Source of the DNA: Gordonibacter urolithinfaciens
GTDB taxonomy: Bacteria; Actinomycetota; Coriobacteriia; Coriobacteriales; Eggerthellaceae
Reading direction: 5' to 3'
Length of the DNA: 64,000 nucleotides
NCBI RefSeq assembly: GCF_900199375.1
Contig: NZ_LT900217.1
Location: 1,302,001 to 1,366,000 of the forward strand
A model generated the notes under the pieces. It was not told where the DNA came from and did not search any database. It saw only the letters and a list, made by a program, of their open reading frames with translations. Shown piece after piece: positions 16,012 to 36,365 of the stretch. The position numbers and the translations under genes were made by a program. The first letter of the stretch is position 1, and each line of letters starts with the position of its first letter.

Positions 16012-19000
16012 CTACGCTTTCCGCACTTCCACCCAGAGGTCGAATTGGGCCGCGCCGCCGCCGATGGGGTCGCAGAGGCCGCCGCCTCCGGCGAGCGTGG
16101 GATCGTCGGGCAGAAGCTCGTTCATGCGGAAGCCCCGGCCGCGGCCTCCGGCGAAGCCCGTCTTCTGCTTGCCGGGCTCATCGCCGTCGAGGACGCCCTC
16201 CTCTTCCAGGTAATCGGGCGCGGGACCCACCTGCTGGCCGTCGACGGTCACCGCTCGCGCGCCGTAGCCCTTGTGCCCGAACGAGTAGTTCGAGCCCACC
16301 ACGCCAGGACGGATGCCCTCGGTCACGCGCACATGGCCGGCCATCGCCCCGACCGATCCTTCGATCTCCACGGCGTCGCCATTGGCCAGGCTGCGCGCCT
16401 CGGCGTCGGAAGGGTGCATCCACACGAAGTTCTCGGTGGTCGTCTCGCGCAGCCAGGGCGCGGCGATGGTGCGATGCGAGCCGTTCGTGCGGGCCTTCCA
16501 GTTGATGAAGGCGAGCGGGCGCTCGGGCGGGTGCTCCATCGGCGTGCCGTCGGCGAACGCCACCGGGGCGGGGTGCGCTAGCCCGTCGAAGTTCTCTCCG
16601 GTCAGAGCGTTCTTGAGCGAGGCGGTCTTCGGATCGTAGAATTGGCACAGCCCGCCGTAGCGCGCCTTGATGAGCTCGCCCTCGTAGCCGTCGCCCTTCG
16701 CCGGATCGGCCGAGGCGAACCTCCCGCCGCGGTTGAGCACGTACACCACCTTCGGCCATTCCTCATTGGTGACGGCCGCCTTCCACGCCGCCAGGTCGAA
16801 CGCCTCGCCCAGCGCGCGCGTCCGGGCGCGCTCGAACAGCGCGAGCTCCTCGGAGTCGGCGTCGGGCACGGGCTCCTTGCCCGTGTAGGCGATGTTCGCG
16901 GCCATCTTCAGCCAGTAGTCGTACTCGTTCGACAGCGCCGCCGTGCCACCCGCGCCGTCCTTGCCCACCGGCACCGCGCCCTCGCCCACGCCCGGCAGGT
17001 TGAGGCGCGCCATGAGGTCCAGGTACACGTCCTCCACCGAGCGCGGGCCCTCGTACGCCCGCACGGCCGGCTGCCCCAGCTGGATGAGCTGGTAGGGCTG
17101 GTTGGGATAGATGCTCTCCTGGCTGAACCGCTCGAGGTACACCTTGTCGGGCAGCACGAAGTCGGCGTAGCGCGACGTGTCGCCTATCTCCACGTCGAAC
17201 GACACGAGCAGGTTGATCTTGGCCTGGTCGCCCAGCACGTCGACCAGGCGGTCGCCGCCCGGCGTGGAGTCCACGAGCGAATGGCGGTGGATGAACAGCG
17301 CGCCCAGGTGGTCGTACACGTAGCCGGCGCGCAGCGCGGGCACGATCTCGTGCGAGAGGTTGCCCGGCAGCGGGTACCACGGCCGCGGCGCGGGATAGCC
17401 GGCCTGCTTGAAGTAGCTGGTCTTCTCGTACTCCACCTTCTGGCGCGTGATGGGGATGCCCCAGCCCGCGTGCGCGTCGGGCACCTTCTTCAAATCGTAG
17501 CGGCCCTCAAACGGGGCGAACTTCGCGCCCGCCGCCAGGTGCCCGCCCTTCCAGTCGTGGTTGCCGATGAGGAAGTTGAGGTAGCCCGCCGCCCGCACGG
17601 CGTCGAAGCCGTTGGCGTGCATGGCCGGGCCGCGGTAGCTCATGACGCAGGCGCGCTTGCCGTGCGAGGTGAACTCGCGGGCCACGTCGGCCACCACGGC
17701 GGGGTCGATGCCGGCCTCGGCGGCGTACTCCTCCATCGTGCGCTCGCCCACGCGCTCCTTGAGCAGCGAGAACACGCTTCGCACGCGCGCGGGCTTGCCC
17801 TTGATCTCGATCTCGGCGTCCACCTCGAGGTCAGCCAGACCCGCCACGGCGTCGGCGGCCACCAGCTCGCCGTCCGCGAACACGAAGCGCGCGTCGTCCT
17901 TGAGCGCCTCGCCGTCCGACCCGGCCTCGCCGGCGCGCCCGAGCAACTTCGCCGTGACCACCGGTGCGTTCGGCAAATCGACTGCCACGAGGTGCGTCGC
18001 GTCACTCCAGGTGGGCTCGCCGATGACCGCTGCGGCGGCCTTGCCCGGCGCGCGCAGGTACGCCTCGTCGTAGCGCCCGTTGTCGATGATCCACGCCATC
18101 ATGGCGAACGCGAGCTCGGCATCCTTGCCGGGCACCACGGGCAGCCACACGTCGGCCTTCGACGCGCTGCGGCCCTGGCGCGGGTCCACCACGTACAGCT
18201 TCATGCCGCGCTCGCGCGCGACGGACAGGCGCGGTGCCAGCCACGACGGCCCCTTGTTGGCCGTCATGGGCTCGGTGCCCCAGATGATGAGGCATTCGCA
18301 GTGGTCGATGTCGGCGTACATGCGCTTGTGGTTCGTCGTGGGGTGCGTGCGCACGTTGGCCATGACGCCGGTCATGCCGCATACGCCGCCGTGGTTGAAG
18401 TTGTTGACCGAGCCGAACCCCTGCTGCGTGAGGCGGTCGCCGATGAGGAACATGCGATCGCCGCCGGCCGAGCAGAACAGGTTGGACTTCGGGCCCAGGT
18501 CGGGGTGCGACGTGTCGATGAGGATGTCGGCCCACTTCACGTCGAACGCGTCCTGGGTCATCTCGCCGGACTCCACAAGCGCGACTTCGGCCTCCACCTG
18601 CTTCTTCGGCGCCCAGGCGTACCATTCCGCAATACCGGGCGTGCCGAGGGTCGGCGAGCCGTGCACGATCTCGTCGAGCGCCGTGTCCCAGTCCACTGTT
18701 TCCCACTCGTCGCTTCCGCGCGCGCCCACACGGCGCAACGGACGGGTGATGCGGAACCGATCGTGCACGAGCTGGACGCCCGACTGGCCTTTGAGGCAGA
18801 TCATGCCGCCATTGGTCGCGCGGCCCTCGCGCGCCATGCCGTCGCCGGGAGCGAGCGCCTCCTCGGGCCGCGTGCCATAAGGCACGGGCGCGTAGGGCTG
18901 CGAGTTGAGCGGCGAGTACGGGTTGCCCGCGATCTTGCGCACGAGCGCCGTGGCCCCCTCGTTGGCCTGCGGGCCGTCGGCCGCATCGCACACGCGCACC

Positions 19001-19344
19001 TTGATGGTGCAGTACGTGTTGCAGTTGTTGCACATCGACAGGATCACGTCGTCGGCCGCGTACGCGCCGGTGGCGGTGCCTCGTCCATGTGGTGTGTCGG
19101 TCATAGGATCGTCGCTTGCCATATAAGCCCCCAATCCGGTTCCTGCCGCCAAAGCGCCTAACGCCACCGCGCAGCCCGCACCCACAACCGCGCGCCGCGA
19201 CGGCGTGCCGAACACGCTTGCGGAATTCGGCTCGATCATACCGCTCGCACAAGAGCACGCAGACGGCGTTGCTACCGTTGGCGCGTATTCCGCGCCGACA
19301 CCGCATGTTTCCTTCGACCGGCCGTCGTTACGCTGCGCTTCCAT
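16012..19344 (-). CDS. TtrA-like molybdopterin oxidoreductase catalytic subunit
   Basis: Exported Mo-bis-MGD reductase of 1110 residues in the tetrathionate/arsenate/selenate (TtrA/ArrA/SrdA) branch. The ATG at 19344 has a perfect AAGGAGGTG and overlaps the end of the NrfD-type gene by 17 bases. A Tat motif PSRRAVVG lies unusually far in (Arg50-Arg51). The [4Fe-4S] motif is CNNCNTYC plus MICLKG. The Mo-ligand region reads FNHGGVCGMTG, giving Cys. The gene order B-C-A and the large size match ttrBCA of Salmonella and srdBCA, so tetrathionate is one candidate substrate, but arsenate or selenate cannot be excluded. This is the last gene of the run, with a terminator at its 3' end. Confidence 0.9.
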   Translation of the reverse strand: MEAQRNDGRSKETCGVGAEYAPTVATPSACSCASGMIEPNSASVFGTPSRRAVVGAGCAVALGALAAGTGLGAYMASDDPMTDTPHGRGTATGAYAADDVILSMCNNCNTYCTIKVRVCDAADGPQANEGATALVRKIAGNPYSPLNSQPYAPVPYGTRPEEALAPGDGMAREGRATNGGMICLKGQSGVQLVHDRFRITRPLRRVGARGSDEWETVDWDTALDEIVHGSPTLGTPGIAEWYAWAPKKQVEAEVALVESGEMTQDAFDVKWADILIDTSHPDLGPKSNLFCSAGGDRMFLIGDRLTQQGFGSVNNFNHGGVCGMTGVMANVRTHPTTNHKRMYADIDHCECLIIWGTEPMTANKGPSWLAPRLSVARERGMKLYVVDPRQGRSASKADVWLPVVPGKDAELAFAMMAWIIDNGRYDEAYLRAPGKAAAAVIGEPTWSDATHLVAVDLPNAPVVTAKLLGRAGEAGSDGEALKDDARFVFADGELVAADAVAGLADLEVDAEIEIKGKPARVRSVFSLLKERVGERTMEEYAAEAGIDPAVVADVAREFTSHGKRACVMSYRGPAMHANGFDAVRAAGYLNFLIGNHDWKGGHLAAGAKFAPFEGRYDLKKVPDAHAGWGIPITRQKVEYEKTSYFKQAGYPAPRPWYPLPGNLSHEIVPALRAGYVYDHLGALFIHRHSLVDSTPGGDRLVDVLGDQAKINLLVSFDVEIGDTSRYADFVLPDKVYLERFSQESIYPNQPYQLIQLGQPAVRAYEGPRSVEDVYLDLMARLNLPGVGEGAVPVGKDGAGGTAALSNEYDYWLKMAANIAYTGKEPVPDADSEELALFERARTRALGEAFDLAAWKAAVTNEEWPKVVYVLNRGGRFASADPAKGDGYEGELIKARYGGLCQFYDPKTASLKNALTGENFDGLAHPAPVAFADGTPMEHPPERPLAFINWKARTNGSHRTIAAPWLRETTTENFVWMHPSDAEARSLANGDAVEIEGSVGAMAGHVRVTEGIRPGVVGSNYSFGHKGYGARAVTVDGQQVGPAPDYLEEEGVLDGDEPGKQKTGFAGGRGRGFRMNELLPDDPTLAGGGGLCDPIGGGAAQFDLWVEVRKA

Positions 19345-20830
19345 CGCGCACCTCCTTAGCCCTCGAGCCTTCGCCGCACGATGACGCATCCGCATCGGGC
19401 ACCGCCTTTGTATACGCGCTCTCCAGCCAAACTTCTCCCTCACTCGCACCCATGCGCTCGAGCGGCAGCAACCTTACTGCCAAGCCGTAGCAACCCACAG
19501 CCAGCCCCAGCACAAACAGCGCCACCATCACCTCGCCGAGGCTCGGCACATAGACCGGCGTGGGCATACCAGCCAAGAGCGGCACCGAAAACCCGGCCAC
19601 CACCAGCACATAGCGCAACGCCAGCACGCCCGCCAGAGCCGCCAGCGCGGCAGCCACGGCCCACGCGCCGCCAGCACTGCCGCGATCGGCCCCAACGGCG
19701 CCGCCATCACGAGCGCCGCGCGAGCGCGCCGCGCCCACCGCCAGCAGCACCGCTGGCGCCACGAGGCCCAGCCCGATCTCACCCAGCCAGAACAGCGGCG
19801 CCAAAGGACCTGCCACCATTGCCTGTACGGGGGCAGCCACCGCCGGGTCTCCCGACAGCAGCGCCGGCGCCACTTGGAAGAATATGCAGAACGCCAGCGC
19901 AAACAACGACGCGGCCAGCACGCGGTTCAACCCCACGAGCACGCCGCCGTCCGGCTGCGCCCCGCGCAAGCGTGCCAGCAACCGGTACGCAACGACCAGA
20001 AACGCGGCCGCCGTCACGATAGCCATGACGTAGAACAGCACCGACGTGATGCCGCCCTCCCACAGCCCGCGGGTTTTCACCGCGGCAAAGAACATGCCCG
20101 TGCCGCCCGGAGGCCCCACAAACGAGGTGGCCACGCCCACGCCGGCCAACACGCGGATGGCCAAGTTCACGTTGCCCCGCCGCCTGAGCACGTCGGGGCT
20201 CGTCGCGCCCGCCGCCGATGCTTTCACACCCGACAACTCCGCACCTAACGCTCCCGCGCCCGGCGCGTCCGCGACCCCGTCGCCGCCCGCCGCAGCCTCG
20301 GCCGTGCGCTTGTCGTTCAGCAGCACCAACGCGAACTGCACGATGGCGATCACCATGAAGAACACGTACGCCTTGATCTCCCAAGCCAGCGGCGACGACC
20401 AGTGGAAGAACAGCAGCGTGCCCAGCGAGTGCCGGATGGCGCCCAAGTCGATGCCGATGAAGATCATCGACACCACAAGCGACACCATGCTCAAGCCCAG
20501 CGACAGGCGCGCGATGGGCGCGAAGCGCGGCAGCCTCAGCAGGTACACCAAAGCCGACAGCAGGTACAAACCGCCCGCCAGCCCCGAGAACCAGATGTAC
20601 ACCACCACCCACAAACCCCAGGGCACGGCGTTCGTGGCCCCGGCCATGCCCAGGCCGTTCGCCAGCCGGTCGAACATGAAGTACGCGCCCGCTGCCAACA
20701 GCACGCCCACGATAACGGCCCAACCTACCGTCGCGCGGCGCGAGAACGCCGCCGGCAACGCGTAAGCCTGCAACCGCGGCTCGCGTGAACCCCGCGCTTT
20801 TCGCGCCTTTCGCTCAGCGCTCGATGTCAT
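19328..20830 (-). CDS. NrfD/TtrC-type membrane anchor
   Basis: 500-residue polytopic quinol dehydrogenase of the NrfD/PsrC superfamily. About nine to ten hydrophobic helices are visible, from WAVIVGVLLAAGAYFMF to the C-terminal VPSLGEVMVALFVLGLAVG. The segment PWGLWVVVYIWFSGLAGGLY is typical of the long NrfD members. A soluble Ala/Gly-rich loop of about 60 residues lies mid-protein. It sits between the B and A subunits, 15 bases after B and overlapping A by 17 bases. It should deliver quinol electrons to the B subunit. Confidence 0.9.
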   Translation of the reverse strand: MTSSAERKARKARGSREPRLQAYALPAAFSRRATVGWAVIVGVLLAAGAYFMFDRLANGLGMAGATNAVPWGLWVVVYIWFSGLAGGLYLLSALVYLLRLPRFAPIARLSLGLSMVSLVVSMIFIGIDLGAIRHSLGTLLFFHWSSPLAWEIKAYVFFMVIAIVQFALVLLNDKRTAEAAAGGDGVADAPGAGALGAELSGVKASAAGATSPDVLRRRGNVNLAIRVLAGVGVATSFVGPPGGTGMFFAAVKTRGLWEGGITSVLFYVMAIVTAAAFLVVAYRLLARLRGAQPDGGVLVGLNRVLAASLFALAFCIFFQVAPALLSGDPAVAAPVQAMVAGPLAPLFWLGEIGLGLVAPAVLLAVGAARSRGARDGGAVGADRGSAGGAWAVAAALAALAGVLALRYVLVVAGFSVPLLAGMPTPVYVPSLGEVMVALFVLGLAVGCYGLAVRLLPLERMGASEGEVWLESAYTKAVPDADASSCGEGSRAKEVRDGSAA

Positions 20831-29667: not shown

Positions 29668-29755
29668 GGTGATGCGCGCGGGCTCCCTGCCGTGGATGAT
29701 GACAGGGTCGGATGCAAGCGCAACCGACGCACTCAACAGAGGAGAAGGAGGGAGT

Positions 29756-32700
29756 ATGGCAAGGACCAACCTAGATCGCAGGAGCTTTCTGAAAGCTGCT
29801 GGCGGCCTCGGCGCCCTGTCGATCGCTGGCGTGGGGATCGCCGGCCAGGTGCCTAAGGCACAAGCAGAGGAAACCGCGTTTCCCGAACAGCAGAACGGTC
29901 AGCCCCTCGAGGCAACCGTCGATACCGTGACGGGCAAGCTTGAGGTCAACGAGGACGTGATCGTGCGCTACAGCGCATGCCTCGGCTGCTATAGCTCGTG
30001 CGGCAACCGTCTCAAGCTGGACCGGCAAACGGGTCGCCTCATCTCGGTGGGCGGAAACCCTTATCACCCGAGCTGCGCATACCCGTTCTTGAACTTCGAC
30101 GAGCCGCTCAGCGAGGCCTACCAGGCCATGGGGTTCGCACCCGGCAAGGGAAACCTCACCCGCGGCACCGTGTGCGGCCGGGGGCAGGCAACCCAGGACG
30201 TATACGCGCAACCCGACCGCATTACCGCGCCGCTCAAGCGCGCCGGCAAGCGCGGCGAAGGCAAATGGAAGGCAATCACCTGGGACGACCTTATCAAGGA
30301 GGTCACCGAGGGCGGCAAGCTGTTCGCCGACGCGGGCGAGGATCGCGAGGTCGAGGGCTTCAAAGCTCTCCATGATACCGTGACGCCTTTGAACCCCGAC
30401 TGCCCCGACCTGGGACCGGTGTCGAACCAGTTCGTCATGCTGGGCGGACGAGGCGACGGCCGCACCACCATCGGAACCCGTTTCACCAACTGCTTCGGCT
30501 CGCTAAACCAGTATGGCCACGGCTCCACTTGAGGCGGCTCCCAAACAGCGCGTGCGCTGGCAGAGACCGCTTCGAACAACACCCAACCCGACCTGGAGGA
30601 GGGCGAGTACGTCTTATTCATAGGAGCATTCCCCGGAGCAAACGGCAAGAGCTTCCAGGGAATCGCCAAGCGAACCCTCGATCGCCTGAAAACCGGCAAA
30701 TGCACCATCGACGTGGTGGACCCGGTGCTGGGCAACGGCTGCGTGACCCCCACCGTCGAGGGTATCACCTGGATACCCATCAAAACGGCAACGAACGCAG
30801 CATTCGCACTCGGCATCATCCAGAAGATACTCGATGACAAGACCTACAACGCCACGTTCCTATCCTACCCGAACTACCAGAGCGCGTTCGCAGGCGGTTT
30901 CGCCTCGTACACGAACGCGAGCCACCTCGTCATCGTAGACGAGGACCACCCGAACTACCGCAAGCTCATGCGCGCCGCCGACGCGGGGCTCGAGGAGCCG
31001 GCACCCGACCCGAAAGCCACCGCTCCCGTCCAACATTATGTCGTCATCGACCAGGCCACGGGGCAACCCGCCCTGCACACCCAATGCGACGCCGCAACCA
31101 TCGAGTACGAGGGCGAGGTAAACGGCGTGAAGGTGCGCAGCAGCTTCCTCTTCTTGAAAGACAACGCCTACGAGCACACGATGGATGAGTACGCCCAGAT
31201 CACAGGCACGTCAGTCGCCACCATGGAACGTATAGCGAAAGAGTTCACCGCACATGGGACCAGGGCGTCGGCGCGCCTCGGGTTCGGCGGGACAGCCACT
31301 GCCAACGGCACCCAGGGCGTGCTGGCCTATCCGGCGCTCAACGGGCTCATCGGCTCCGACCAGATGACCGGCGGATGCAACTGCTACCGCATAGGCGTGA
31401 AGACCACGGCCGACGGGGCCCGTTACAAGCTGGCCACCGTCAAGGGCAAGCCAGCCGTTTCCACCAAGAACGCCACGTACCTTTGCCGCACCCAGAAGCT
31501 GTTCTCGCAGACCGACGAGTACAAGGCGCGCGTAGCGGCGGGCGAGAAGGACCCGAAGCCCAAGCTTCCTTGGCTCAACGTTCCCTCCACCTCGGATAAC
31601 CAGGCGCTCGTCTCCATCGTGAACGAGTACCCCTACCGCGCGAAGATACTCGTCTCCTGGATGACGAACACGCTGCAGGCCACCTCGGGCGCCCTGCGCG
31701 ACAGCGTCATCGAGAAGCTCAAGGACCCCGATGTGGTGCCGCTCCACATTGCCTGCGACGCATTCATCGGCGAGCATGCGCAATTGGCAGACTATATCGT
31801 GCCCGACACCACGCCGTTCGAGAGCTTCGGCGTAGTCACGCAAGAGGGCTACTGGCGCGGCCAGGGCAACACGGTGCGGTGGCAAGCGAAACCGCCAAGC
31901 ACCGTCGAGCTTGCCGACGGCCGCTTCGCAAGCTTCGAGGCCTTCTGCGTCGACGTTGCACGTGCCTGCAACCTTCCCGGCTTCGGCGAGAACGCTATCG
32001 AGAGCGCAGACGGCACCTTCTATCCATTGAACGATGCAGCCGACTTCTTCTTGAAGGCCGTGGCCAACCTGGCCTACGCCATCGAGCCGGTGGCCGATGT
32101 GAGCGACGAGGACGTGCGGTTGCAGGCGCTCGATGAACTCCCCGCCTCATGGCAAGACGCGGTCACGGCCGAGGAGTGGCCGAAGGTCCTGAACGTGCTA
32201 TCCCGCGGCGGGCGCTTCTGGCCCATCGAGACCAGCCAAAAGGACGGCCGCAGCGCGTACGCCAAGGAGTACCTGGTGCAGTACTACAGCGAGAAGAAGG
32301 CCTTGAACAAGAACCCCTATTCAGGTGCCTATCCTGACGCGGCCCTGCGCTACGTGCCCGAGGATTTCTGCGACCGAACCCCCATCGCCGACGTGTACGA
32401 CGAAAAGGAATGGCCGTTCCGATCCACGAATTACAAACCCCGATTCCGCTCGATATCCATGCAGGCGAACAGCCCGCTCATGCGCGACCTGTGCGAGAAG
32501 AACTACCTGGAACTCAACCTGGAGGACGCGGCGGCGCTGGGCATCGGGGACGGCGACATCGTGCGTATCGCGAACCCCACGGGCGACATAATGGAAGGCG
32601 AGGCCATGGTACGCGCCGGCATTGCGCGCGGCACGTTCGGCGTGGCTTTCGGCTACGGGCATCGCGCTTATGGAACCCAGGATCGCGAGGTCGACGGCAC

Positions 32701-32854
32701 GCTGGCGAAGGGCGACCCCGCCATCGGCGCCGGCATCCATCTGCAGACGATGCTCGACCCGACGCTCGAGGAGGGGGTCATCTACCCCCACGTCGACAGC
32801 GATGCCGGCTCGCCCGGCCGCAGCGGCGGAATGTACCGGATCGAGAAGGCATAG
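29756..32854 (+). CDS. Selenocysteine-containing molybdopterin oxidoreductase (TtrA/ArrA/SrdA-like)
   Basis: One gene of 1033 codons read through an in-frame TGA at 30530-30532 (codon 259); standard translation would split it in two. Tat leader RRSFLK (Arg8-Arg9), [4Fe-4S] motif CLGCYSSC with later TVCGRG. The TGA sits in GSLNQYGHGST-(TGA)-GGSQ. This aligns with FGSVNNFNHGGVCGMTG of the TtrA-like protein in this window, so TGA takes the place of the Mo-ligand Cys. No stop interrupts the frame after it, and homology continues to the end (EEWPKVLNVLSRGGRF). A hairpin with GU in its loop follows at 30546-30559. ATG at 29756 has AAGGAGGGAG. It heads an A-B-NrfD operon. Substrate unknown. Confidence 0.9.
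30530..30559 (+). promoter_or_regulatory. Selenocysteine UGA codon and bacterial SECIS-like hairpin
   Basis: UGA at 30530-30532. From 14 to 27 bases downstream, CAGCGCGUGCGCUG folds as a 5-6 bp stem with GU at the tip. Bacterial SelB-binding hairpins lie about this far 3' of the codon and need G and U in the apical loop. The in-frame coding sequence on both sides supports recoding rather than a mutation. Confidence 0.82.
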
Positions 32855-32866
32855 GAGGGAGTGATC

Positions 32867-33493
32867 ATGAGCACCTCAACGAAGCGTTTCGGCATGCTGA
32901 TCGACCTATCCCTCTGCATCGGCTGCAACGCGTGCGCCGTCGCCTGCAAGCAGGAGAACGGCGTGCCGCTCACGAAGTTCAACACCTGGGTGGAAAGCTG
33001 GGACGTGGGAACCGGCGAGCAGGCTCGCCGCGCCAACCAACCGAAGCTGTGCAACCATTGCGCCGATGCCCCTTGCGTGAAGGTGTGCCCGACAGGCGCC
33101 AGCTACCGCACGGAGGACGGCGTGGTGCTGGTTGACGCCGAGAAGTGCATCGGCTGCAAGTACTGCATGGCCGCCTGTCCTTACCAGGCGCGATGGGTCG
33201 ATGACGACACGGGCGAGGTGGGCAAGTGCACATTCTGCCACCACCGTACCGCACACGGCCTGCTGCCTGCCTGCGTGTCCACCTGCGTAACCCGCGCACG
33301 TTACTTCGGCGACCTGGACGACCCGTCGAGCGATATAGCGAAAAAGGTCGCGGACGTCGGGGGCGAAGCGCTCTTCGCCGACCTCGGATTGAACCCGTCG
33401 GTTCTCTACGTGGGACTTTCGCAGGTTGAGGGCCTGCCCGCAACATCCGCCATCCACCGTGGCGGCAACGTCGTCAAGCCGTACGAGGGGTGA
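32867..33493 (+). CDS. Iron-sulfur subunit of the selenoenzyme complex
   Basis: 208-residue four-cluster ferredoxin subunit: CIGCNACAVAC, CNHCADAPCVKVC, CIGCKYCMAACPYQA and CTFCHHRTAHGLLPACVSTC. The ATG at 32867 is 8 bases after AGGAGG; a GTG six bases earlier is too close to it. It begins 12 bases after the catalytic gene stop. A C-terminal tail of about 30 residues beyond the usual end (GLSQVEGLPATSAIHRGG) is distinctive. It carries electrons from the NrfD-type anchor to the selenoenzyme. Confidence 0.93.
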   Translation: MSTSTKRFGMLIDLSLCIGCNACAVACKQENGVPLTKFNTWVESWDVGTGEQARRANQPKLCNHCADAPCVKVCPTGASYRTEDGVVLVDAEKCIGCKYCMAACPYQARWVDDDTGEVGKCTFCHHRTAHGLLPACVSTCVTRARYFGDLDDPSSDIAKKVADVGGEALFADLGLNPSVLYVGLSQVEGLPATSAIHRGGNVVKPYEG

Positions 33494-33498
33494 TCAGC

Positions 33499-34380
33499 AT
33501 GGTATGGGATGGAATCATCGCAACGTACCTGTTTCTGGCAGGATTGGGCGCCGGCGCGTTCGCGCTCGCCGCGCTCGCGGGCTTCGTGAGACCCGATGCC
33601 GTGAAGCTGCGCACCATCGGCTACGTCATCGCGCCCATCGCGGTGGGCGTGGGCACGGTGCTGCTCATGGTGGATGCCAAGGCGGGGCTCATGAACCCGC
33701 TGCGCTTCTTCGGGCTGCTGGGCAACTTCTCGTCCATCATGGCGTGGGGCGTGGTCATCCTCGTCGCGTTCATGGCGGTGAGCGCGATCGCGTTGGTGGT
33801 CATGCTCGTGAAGAAGGCCACGCCCAAGGCGCTGGACGTCGTGGGCCTCGTGTGCGCCGTAGCCGTGGCCGTGTACACCGGCATGCTGCTGGGCGACGCC
33901 CCCGGCTTCCCGCTGTGGAACCCCATCGTGCTGCCGCTGCTGTTCCTGGTCTCGGCGACGTCGACCGGCTTCGCGGCCGTACTCCTGGTCGCGCACCTCA
34001 TGAAGGCGGAGGGCTTGGAATCCCTCGGTTTTTTGAGGAAGGCGGGGCTCGTGCTTCCCGTTGTCGAGGCCGTGCTGATCGCCGCGCTTCTGGGCGTCGT
34101 GTCCGGCACGGGCGGCAGCGCGGCGCTTGCCGCAGCGGCCTCGGTTGCCAGCTTGGCGTTCGGCGCGTACGCCGTGCCGTTCTGGCTGGGATTGGTTCTG
34201 GTGGGGCTGGCGCTGCCCTTCTGCCTGGAGCTGCTCCAAGCGTCCAAGGCCAAGAAGGCTGCGAATGACGGCTCGGGTTCGACCGGCCTTGCCGTCACCG
34301 GCGAGGTTGGCGTGCTGGTGGGCGGCTTCCTGCTGCGCTACCTGGTTATCATGGCCGCCGTGCCGGTGGTGCTGTTCTAG
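33499..34380 (+). CDS. NrfD-type membrane anchor of the selenoenzyme complex
   Basis: 293-residue polytopic anchor with about eight helices, starting WDGIIATYLFLAGLGAGAFA and containing VDAKAGLMNPLRFFGLLG. It is a close paralogue of the anchor at 21641-22507. ATG at 33499 has GAGGGG upstream, 5 bases after the iron-sulfur subunit stop. It completes a three-subunit quinol-dependent complex. A strong hairpin follows. Confidence 0.92.
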   Translation: MVWDGIIATYLFLAGLGAGAFALAALAGFVRPDAVKLRTIGYVIAPIAVGVGTVLLMVDAKAGLMNPLRFFGLLGNFSSIMAWGVVILVAFMAVSAIALVVMLVKKATPKALDVVGLVCAVAVAVYTGMLLGDAPGFPLWNPIVLPLLFLVSATSTGFAAVLLVAHLMKAEGLESLGFLRKAGLVLPVVEAVLIAALLGVVSGTGGSAALAAAASVASLAFGAYAVPFWLGLVLVGLALPFCLELLQASKAKKAANDGSGSTGLAVTGEVGVLVGGFLLRYLVIMAAVPVVLF

Positions 34381-35312: not shown

Positions 35313-36365
35313 CTAGCGCAGCACGCACCGGTGGCCCGGCGTGGCGCTGCAGCCGTTGCATGAGACACAGCGCGAAACCGCCTGCGGGTCGGCCGCCCAG
35401 CGGTTCGGCAGGTCGGGCTCGCAGATGAGGGGACGGCACAGGCCGAACCCGGCAATACCCTCGTCGGCCAAGCGCTCCATCGCGTCGACGCGGCGGTTGC
35501 CGCCCGTGAGGATCACCGGCACCGGCACGGCCCGCGCCAGCCGCCGCGCGTAGGCGGCGAAGAACGGCTCGCCGGCGAAATCGCGCGCGCGGCAGGCACG
35601 CCACGGACCGCTCACCTCGATGGCCGAAACGCCGGCTTCCACCAGCAGCTGCGCCGCCTCCAGGCTGTCGTCCTCGGTCAGGCCGCCCTCCACGCCGTCC
35701 GAGCTGTTCAGCTTCACGAGCACGGGATATTCCGCGCCTGCCTCCCGCCGAATGGCCGCGAGCGCCTCCACGACGATGCGCGCGCGGTTCTCAACAGGGC
35801 CGCCGTACTCGTCCGTCCTACGGTTGAGCAGCGGGTTCAGGAACTGGCTCAGCAGGTAGCCGTGGGCGGCATGCAGCTCCACCCCGTCGAACCCCGCGTC
35901 GCGCGCACGACGGGCTGCCGCGGCGAACGACTCCACGAGCAGGCGGATGTCGCCCCTCGAGGCCTCGACGGGGACGATGCCCGTCTTGGGGTTGGGCACC
36001 GCCGACGGACCCAGGATGCGCGCGCTCGGGGGATCGAGCTTCGTTGCGGAGCCTCCGTACACGATCTGCGAGACAACGCGCGCGCCGTAGGAATGGAGGC
36101 GTTCTACCAGCTCGCGGTACTCCGGCACGAACGAGTCGTCGTAGATTCCCAGCATGCGCGGGTTCGGCTGCTCGTCGGGCGTCACGTACGCGTACCCCAA
36201 GATGACGGTGCCCGCCCCGCCGGCCGCCAGATCCTCGCAAACCGCCGCCAGCTCCGGCGTGAGGTGCCCGTCGTCGGTGGCCAACCCCTCGTAGGTCGCC
36301 GCCCGCACCAACCGGTTCCTCGCCCGCAGGCTCCCGATGCACATCTCCTCGAACAGCGTGCCCAT
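35313..36365 (-). CDS. Old-yellow-enzyme family NADH:flavin oxidoreductase
   Basis: 350-residue FMN-binding TIM barrel. Visible family motifs are the N-terminal SLRARNRLVRAATYEGLA, the active-site region GFDGVELHAAHGYLLSQFLN, the NRRTDEYGGPVENRARI signature and C-terminal GFGLCRPLICEPDL. A short Cys-rich tail (CVSCNGCSATPGHRC) resembles the cluster-binding segment of 2,4-dienoyl-CoA reductase-type enzymes, but the extra FAD/NAD domains are absent. It may reduce enones or host- or plant-derived compounds; substrate unknown. It stands alone. Confidence 0.9.
   Translation of the reverse strand: MGTLFEEMCIGSLRARNRLVRAATYEGLATDDGHLTPELAAVCEDLAAGGAGTVILGYAYVTPDEQPNPRMLGIYDDSFVPEYRELVERLHSYGARVVSQIVYGGSATKLDPPSARILGPSAVPNPKTGIVPVEASRGDIRLLVESFAAAARRARDAGFDGVELHAAHGYLLSQFLNPLLNRRTDEYGGPVENRARIVVEALAAIRREAGAEYPVLVKLNSSDGVEGGLTEDDSLEAAQLLVEAGVSAIEVSGPWRACRARDFAGEPFFAAYARRLARAVPVPVILTGGNRRVDAMERLADEGIAGFGLCRPLICEPDLPNRWAADPQAVSRCVSCNGCSATPGHRCVLR

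Follow-up and report, generated by a model that had tools for sequence, protein, structure and literature searches.

A TtrA-like molybdopterin reductase gene of Gordonibacter urolithinfaciens with a probable selenocysteine codon at the molybdenum-ligand position

We analysed a 64,000-nucleotide stretch of the Gordonibacter urolithinfaciens genome (RefSeq assembly GCF_900199375.1, contig NZ_LT900217.1, positions 1,302,001 to 1,366,000 of the forward strand), called the window below, in which the gene for a TtrA-like molybdopterin reductase carries an in-frame UGA. Positions are those of the window unless marked otherwise. The frame at 29756-32854 consists of 1032 codons and a final TAG, and translation confirmed the claim of the original prediction that it is open apart from TGA at codon 259 (30530-30532), its sole internal stop. 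Automatic annotation was expected to break the gene into two open reading frames (ORFs), and the mechanical ORF list indeed splits it into 29669-30532 and 30713-32854. If the UGA is a selenocysteine (Sec, U) codon at the active site, standard gene finding would cut the gene in two and hide the enzyme. The features that bear on this reading are listed here.

29756..32854, + strand: putative Sec-containing TtrA-like molybdopterin reductase, subunit A, 1032 aa with U at 259, from its translation and matches to NCBIfam TtrA and to Pfam Molybdopterin and Molydop_binding
30530..30532, + strand: UGA probably read as selenocysteine at the molybdenum (Mo) ligand position; same codon in homologues, in the column of the Cys of ArrA 6cz7
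30545..30560, + strand: SECIS-like (selenocysteine insertion sequence-like) hairpin, +13 to +28 after the UGA; five of six pairs form, 30546-30550 with 30555-30559, around the loop CGUG at 30551-30554
29777..29782, + strand: twin arginine of a probable twin-arginine translocation (Tat) signal peptide, RRSFLKAA; Pfam TAT_signal at 19.8 bits misses the cut-off of 22.7; RR in 15 of 15 aligned rows
29978..30175, + strand: four Cys (C75, C78, C82 and C140) of a probable proximal [4Fe-4S] cluster; present in 15 of 15 rows and matching Cys of ArrA
16012..19449, - strand: distant TtrA-like paralogue of Cys form, at 31-33% identity, with which the ligand position was aligned

In an alignment of 15 proteins, codon 259 fell in the column of the Cys of HGGVCGMTG in the paralogue at 16012-19344, as the original prediction had it. 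Each of the 15 rows, that of the paralogue included, had U (written as C) or C in this ligand column. The best solved-structure match of the profile was ArrA 6cz7. Counted along the profile-structure alignment, U259 lies opposite the Cys at chain position 153, which we take to be Cys193, the Mo ligand of ArrA.

The family search covered 138 genomes at E <= 1e-60, with at most five candidates scored per genome; its counts are lower bounds. It returned at least 48 places in at least 26 genomes, 37 of them close homologues at 47-100% identity and 11 distant copies at 31-33%. The duplicate loci L021 and L051 were removed before codons were counted. A single TGA, each time at column 259, was carried by 21 of the 37 close homologues, in 16 genomes, and the other 16 carry TGC. 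The U was thus exchanged only with C, and stops at unrelated positions, which had been named as a possible refutation, were found in none of the 37. At the ligand column six distant copies and the window's own were all Cys, and four more had no stop. The residues after U in the U forms were GG, GA or AV, and never H. The copy in Gordonibacter sp. 28C was 89% identical and had the same UGA; a single-protein search of genome contigs, which reaches close relatives only, gave one locus. The source genome itself contains a very large expansion of the superfamily, with 69 molybdopterin oxidoreductase domain matches in 3.3 Mb. TGA lies inside only three of these, the reductase gene and two formate dehydrogenases with VUHAPTVAG and VUHSPTVAG (loci L072 and L063); a UGA paralogue at genome position 122042 is outside the 69. 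Tandem A-B-C operons were also seen in the source genome (L052, G000:C1:112753-127146), one with a Cys form and one with a UGA form, about 19-31 kb from the sel genes. One distant TtrA-like copy (L064, G063:C1:2447327; locus 2445327-2452053) has an in-frame TAG elsewhere and is possibly a broken gene.

Selection on the reductase gene was measured against two relatives, L023 and L024. The ratio of nonsynonymous to synonymous substitution rates (dN/dS) was 0.093 and 0.095 before the UGA and 0.108 and 0.114 after it. For codons 260-319 the values were 0.083 and 0.084; these codons contain no in-frame start, the first after the UGA being GTG at codon 320. All 13 third positions following the UGA were identical in three genomes of the genus, compared with 60% over the gene, and this identity was equalled by 0.7% of 13-codon segments. 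Purifying selection acts on both sides of the UGA.

The sequence CAGCGCGUGCGCUG (30546-30559, from +14 after the UGA) folds as a 5-bp stem, CAGCG with CGCUG, around the loop CGUG, with GU at +20/+21, and sits within a 39-base fold. The hairpin proposed 14 bases after the UGA is therefore present, but the two-base GU tip assigned to it was wrong: such a tip cannot close, which leaves the 5-bp stem with its CGUG loop. Covariation was tested on 17 distinct UGA-form sequences with 500 shuffles and slid-partner controls. The stem of +13..+18 with +23..+28 was paired in 93.1% of cells, and five of the six pairs had changed on both sides. None of the 500 shuffles matched the hairpin in share paired or in covariation score. 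All slid controls were lower, with the share paired falling to 30-55% when the partner was moved by 1 to 3 columns. Alternative loops occur, the U form of L025 pairing better with a five-base loop and that of L057 with a six-base loop.

All 21 of the 21 U forms have GU at +20/+21, versus three of the 22 Cys forms compared (16 close, 6 distant). U21 falls at a third codon position, where T stands in 2-15% of the codons of these genes; the product of the third-base T shares over the 17 sequences is 1e-22, a value overstated because the genes are related. In the two Sec formate dehydrogenases of the same genome the stem likewise starts at +13, and the loop GGUCU places G20-U21 at the same distance. 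In Escherichia coli, according to passages of PMC8659212, the SECIS hairpin comprises bases 15-31, the conserved loop bases are G23 and U24, and U17 is needed by SelB. When the UGA is counted as bases 1-3, as we read it, G23-U24 of E. coli correspond to G20-U21 here. A covariance model of the element was used to scan the 3.29-Mb genome, with 150 of 2766 first-look candidates scored. At E <= 1 it reported only the reductase gene and the UGA paralogue (genome positions 124337-124384), both of which are in the model's own alignment; the elements of the genome's own formate dehydrogenases were not reported among the 150 scored of the 2766 candidates. Covariation, the comparison with these formate dehydrogenases and the covariance model support the view that the hairpin is a SECIS-like element.

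The source genome is a single contig of 3,294,868 bases, in which selA, selB, selC and selD, which the original prediction had named as genes to look for, were all present. The scores were 551.5 bits for selA (cut-off 267.9), 350 bits for selB (cut-off 242.25) and 336.9 bits for selD (cut-off 125), and selD has a UGA of its own in KGGUAAKW (Sec SelD). The tRNA-Sec scored 70.6 bits against a gathering score of 47 and was called SeC by ARAGORN; the other eight matches to the tRNA-Sec model were under the gathering score. selA, selB, tRNA-Sec and selD all lie within about 12 kb. Among the homologues' genomes, tRNA-Sec above the gathering score was found in 16 of 16 with a UGA form versus three of six with Cys forms only (Fisher p = 0.013, for genomes that are not independent). 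selB at E <= 1e-60 was found in 14 of the 16, in three of the six and in 73 of the 138 family genomes overall. In one genome (G058; L112:10517-11320, G058:C1:716001-732000) a second, diverged tRNA-Sec stands directly after the Sec reductase operon, in the order A-B-C, NarJ/TorD-like chaperone, tRNA-Sec. It shares 84 of 97 bases with the main copy, and its acceptor stem has changed on both sides.

The best curated model for subunit A was TtrA (NCBIfam NF011567), at 607.6 bits, with its cut-off of 1750 missed. PhsA (117.7), DmsA/YnfE (113.8), ArrA (68.5) and formate dehydrogenase (64.5 and 45.9 bits) scored lower. By these models subunit A appears nearer to TtrA than to the other branches, in a comparison that had SrdA and alternative ArrA sequences outside it. 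The assignment to a Sec version of the TtrA/ArrA/SrdA branch stood in that the UGA lies at the ligand column and TtrA is the best model; it has to be narrowed in that TtrA is the nearest named relative only, with its cut-off far off. In the 15 listed of 72 plasmid records, TtrA or TtrA-like proteins shared 33-34% identity across 94-97% of the protein, and three of these 72, used as reference proteins, all had C at the ligand column.

These comparisons suggest that the gene at 29756-32854 very probably encodes a selenoprotein with Sec at residue 259. The TGA could instead be a recent nonsense mutation in a Cys gene, or a base-call error, being one base from the TGC that 16 close homologues carry. 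However, the same TGA is found in 21 genes of 16 genomes, dN/dS is about 0.1 on both sides of it and third positions after it are conserved within the genus (13 of 13, versus 60% gene-wide), so that a pseudogene or sequencing error is almost inconceivable. The UGA could also be a true stop, separating a 258-residue N-terminal piece from a restarted C-terminal piece, and automatic ORF calling yields just such a pair (29669-30532 and 30713-32854). This is extremely improbable, as the first restart would be the GTG at codon 320, the codons 260-319 ahead of it are under purifying selection (dN/dS 0.083 and 0.084), and no stop interrupts the 16 close Cys homologues at the UGA site.

Some UGA read-through happens in bacteria, and the codon might be read as another amino acid without selenium, by near-cognate suppression or in a reassigned code. 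We consider this very unlikely: the UGA of the homologues occurs only at the Cys column, TGA interrupts just three of the genome's 69 molybdopterin-domain matches, of which the other two are the VUHAPTVAG and VUHSPTVAG formate dehydrogenases, and tRNA-Sec in 16 of 16 U-form genomes is accompanied by a SECIS-like element. A Sec formate dehydrogenase that merely resembles a TtrA relative would share with FdhA and FwdB the Sec at the Mo-ligand column and, with the genome's own formate dehydrogenases, the hairpin from +13 with GU at +20/+21. Yet the formate dehydrogenase models TIGR01553 and TIGR01591 gave 45.9 bits (cut-off 814.2) and 64.5 bits (cut-off 666.25), compared with 607.6 for TtrA. The UHxP motif of FdhA and FwdB is absent, U never preceding H in the U forms; FdhA and FwdB belong to a separate branch of the superfamily, and the formate dehydrogenase loop is one base longer. 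The genome moreover has its two separate Sec formate dehydrogenases with VUHxPTVAG, and that the reductase is another of this kind is extremely unlikely.

Several points weigh against the selenoprotein reading or against parts of it. The unpaired U17 of the E. coli type is not kept: among the 17 distinct U-form sequences, 15 have C or G at +14 and the remaining two a paired U; both own formate dehydrogenase genes have U there. To our knowledge, the need for U17 is not general among bacterial SECIS elements. Rfam returned no SECIS around the UGA, its two weak hits there being opposite-strand matches to unrelated families. Among the 16 genomes with a U form, two gave no SelB match at E <= 1e-60, namely G067 (82% complete) and G061 (56% complete), though both have tRNA-Sec, and half of the genomes with Cys forms only also possess the Sec machinery. 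As kinship links many of the homologues, their counts do not represent independent events. An AlphaFold2 model built from three rows had a mean predicted local distance difference test (pLDDT) score of 29.9 and was not used. In the mechanism set out below, we infer both the electron path, from family likeness, and the role of the substrate as terminal electron acceptor.

Around the gene for subunit A lie the following genes.

32861..33493, + strand: subunit B, ferredoxin-type iron-sulfur (Fe-S) protein, TtrB/DsrO-like; likely start ATG 32867
33490..34380, + strand: subunit C, NrfD-type membrane anchor; likely start ATG 33499; Pfam NrfD 121.3 bits
27978..29732, - strand: LuxR-type regulator, oriented divergently to the reductase; C-terminal Pfam GerE match of 37.2 bits
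26142..27929, + strand: second LuxR-type regulator; C-terminal Pfam GerE match of 56.2 bits

Subunit B scored 203.9 bits with NCBIfam TtrB (cut-off 416) and 193.2 bits with DsrO (cut-off 200), missing both cut-offs. The order A-B-C was found in the window and in most homologous loci. Domain and family matches lend good support to an A-B-C reductase of which the gene encodes subunit A and which is probably Tat-exported, anchored in the membrane and linked to quinol. TtrABC is similar in the full-length homology of A and in having an Fe-S subunit B and an NrfD-like anchor beside A; TtrA has a Tat signal and the proximal Fe-S Cys. It differs in its Cys ligand, where Sec is predicted here, and in the gene order, which is B-C-A in three reference loci. 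At +5 from the ligand, Arg stands in three of three TtrA references and Lys in ArrA, whereas this position is uncharged in all 37 close members. ArrA 6cz7 lines up with subunit A at the ligand column and at His -4, but its ligand is Cys and its Lys at +5 is not kept. The absence of a charged residue at +5 speaks weakly against an oxyanion pocket of the TtrA/ArrA type in subunit A. The branch of TtrA, SrdA and alternative ArrA has its ligand tabulated as Cys in parts of PMC10100899 and PMC7331816, in contrast to the UGA at that codon here. The catechol dehydroxylases of Eggerthella and Gordonibacter resemble the reductase by description only, in their similar hosts, expanded molybdopterin family and, for some, three subunits; they differ in that no Sec is mentioned for them in the passages of PMC11574389 consulted.

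In the mechanism that we propose, SelB carrying Sec-tRNA-Sec would bind the hairpin 3' of UGA 259 and Sec would be inserted, binding and insertion both being suggested by the conservation of the UGA and the hairpin. Subunit A, probably exported by the Tat system, would be catalytic, holding Mo-bisMGD (bis-molybdopterin guanine dinucleotide) and one proximal Fe-S cluster. Molybdenum would have the selenium of Sec 259 as its protein ligand, where TtrA, SrdA and ArrA use Cys sulfur. Electrons would pass from menaquinol through C and B to A, and the predicted substrate would be a terminal electron acceptor. Induction of the reductase by a specific small molecule is suggested by the two LuxR-type regulators next to it.

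The origin of the Sec codon was examined on a tree of 43 proteins with an outgroup of six distant copies. At least four state changes are required by the 21 U forms, three of them forced by well-supported branches. Every outgroup row has Cys, as do both outer branches of the reductase family, and all U forms fall in one group of 28, together with seven Cys forms, with support of only 86/95. The simplest reading would be one gain of Sec from Cys followed by three to four returns to Cys; alternatively, Sec may have been gained from Cys independently. A quick tree with 12 more rows again placed the reductase family in a single group, separate from TtrA and the remaining copies. One Cys form inside the group of 28 (L050, with TGC; L050:3796-3843) has kept the hairpin, with six of six pairs and the loop AGUU. 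It was the best covariance-model match among 24 loci (21.7 bits, E 0.026); the scores of the other Cys loci were near chance and were not used. The hairpin of L050 is likely a fossil SECIS of an earlier Sec codon.

A class search of 396 genomes, own family included (E <= 1e-100, two candidates per genome), gave 19 with a match and none outside the own family. In a phylum search of 396 genomes (profile E <= 1e-90, two candidates per genome) 15 matched, ten of them outside the family, and none of these ten had a stop inside the match. Seven of the ten were read at the ligand column and were all Cys; the match in G770 does not cover that column. On sequence comparison as a whole, we think it likely that this is a Sec-ligated Mo terminal reductase whose substrate is neither formate nor CO2, with Sec gained anew in a TtrA-type Cys branch of the dimethyl sulfoxide (DMSO) reductase superfamily, in Eggerthellaceae, and followed by several returns to Cys and a fossil SECIS.

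In Table 1 of a 2026 inventory of 119 prokaryotic selenoprotein families (PMC13188914), only FdhA and FwdB, both with UHxP, come from this superfamily, and no TtrA-type reductase is listed; the entry 'tetrathionate reductase family' in that inventory is an octaheme cytochrome. The parts consulted of PMC13188914, PMC10100899 and PMC7331816 list Sec for no members of the DMSO reductase superfamily other than formate and formylmethanofuran dehydrogenases. The check for Sec described in passages of a superfamily phylogeny (PMC7331816) concerns homologues of FwdB, FdhG and FdhH. According to a portion of PMC9312934, FdhA is filed under the broad COG0243, and older surveys may for this reason have counted such genes under FdhA. 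In text searches of open-licence papers for Sec in enzymes of this type, none among the matches listed was recognised as describing Sec in a TtrA-type protein.

If the reading is correct, a respiratory reductase has a Sec form, and selenium can serve as a Mo ligand outside one-carbon chemistry too. The Sec and Cys versions of this enzyme, found together even inside one genome, would be natural pairs for asking what selenium does at molybdenum. The reductase would further provide a family in which Sec was replaced by Cys several times, an event called rare in a section of a 2026 review. An enzyme of acceptor respiration in these bacteria would then depend on selenium supply while its gene is split by ordinary ORF calling.

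Subunit C was not seen in two of the homologous loci, L054 and L037, of which L037 is cut near there, and the match to C or B was partial or broken in L034, L042, L043, L055 and L118. L055 and L118 are the same place of G067 (G067:C1:3332000-3351000), where, next to one UGA form, an inner stretch of B is on the opposite strand. The B of the other copy in G067 is in two pieces. A small inversion or an assembly fault would account for both. Some of the neighbouring ORFs scanned in the window were mechanical and had no match. Shortly downstream of the operon, on the - strand at 35313-36365, lies a gene for an NADH:flavin oxidoreductase of the old yellow enzyme type.
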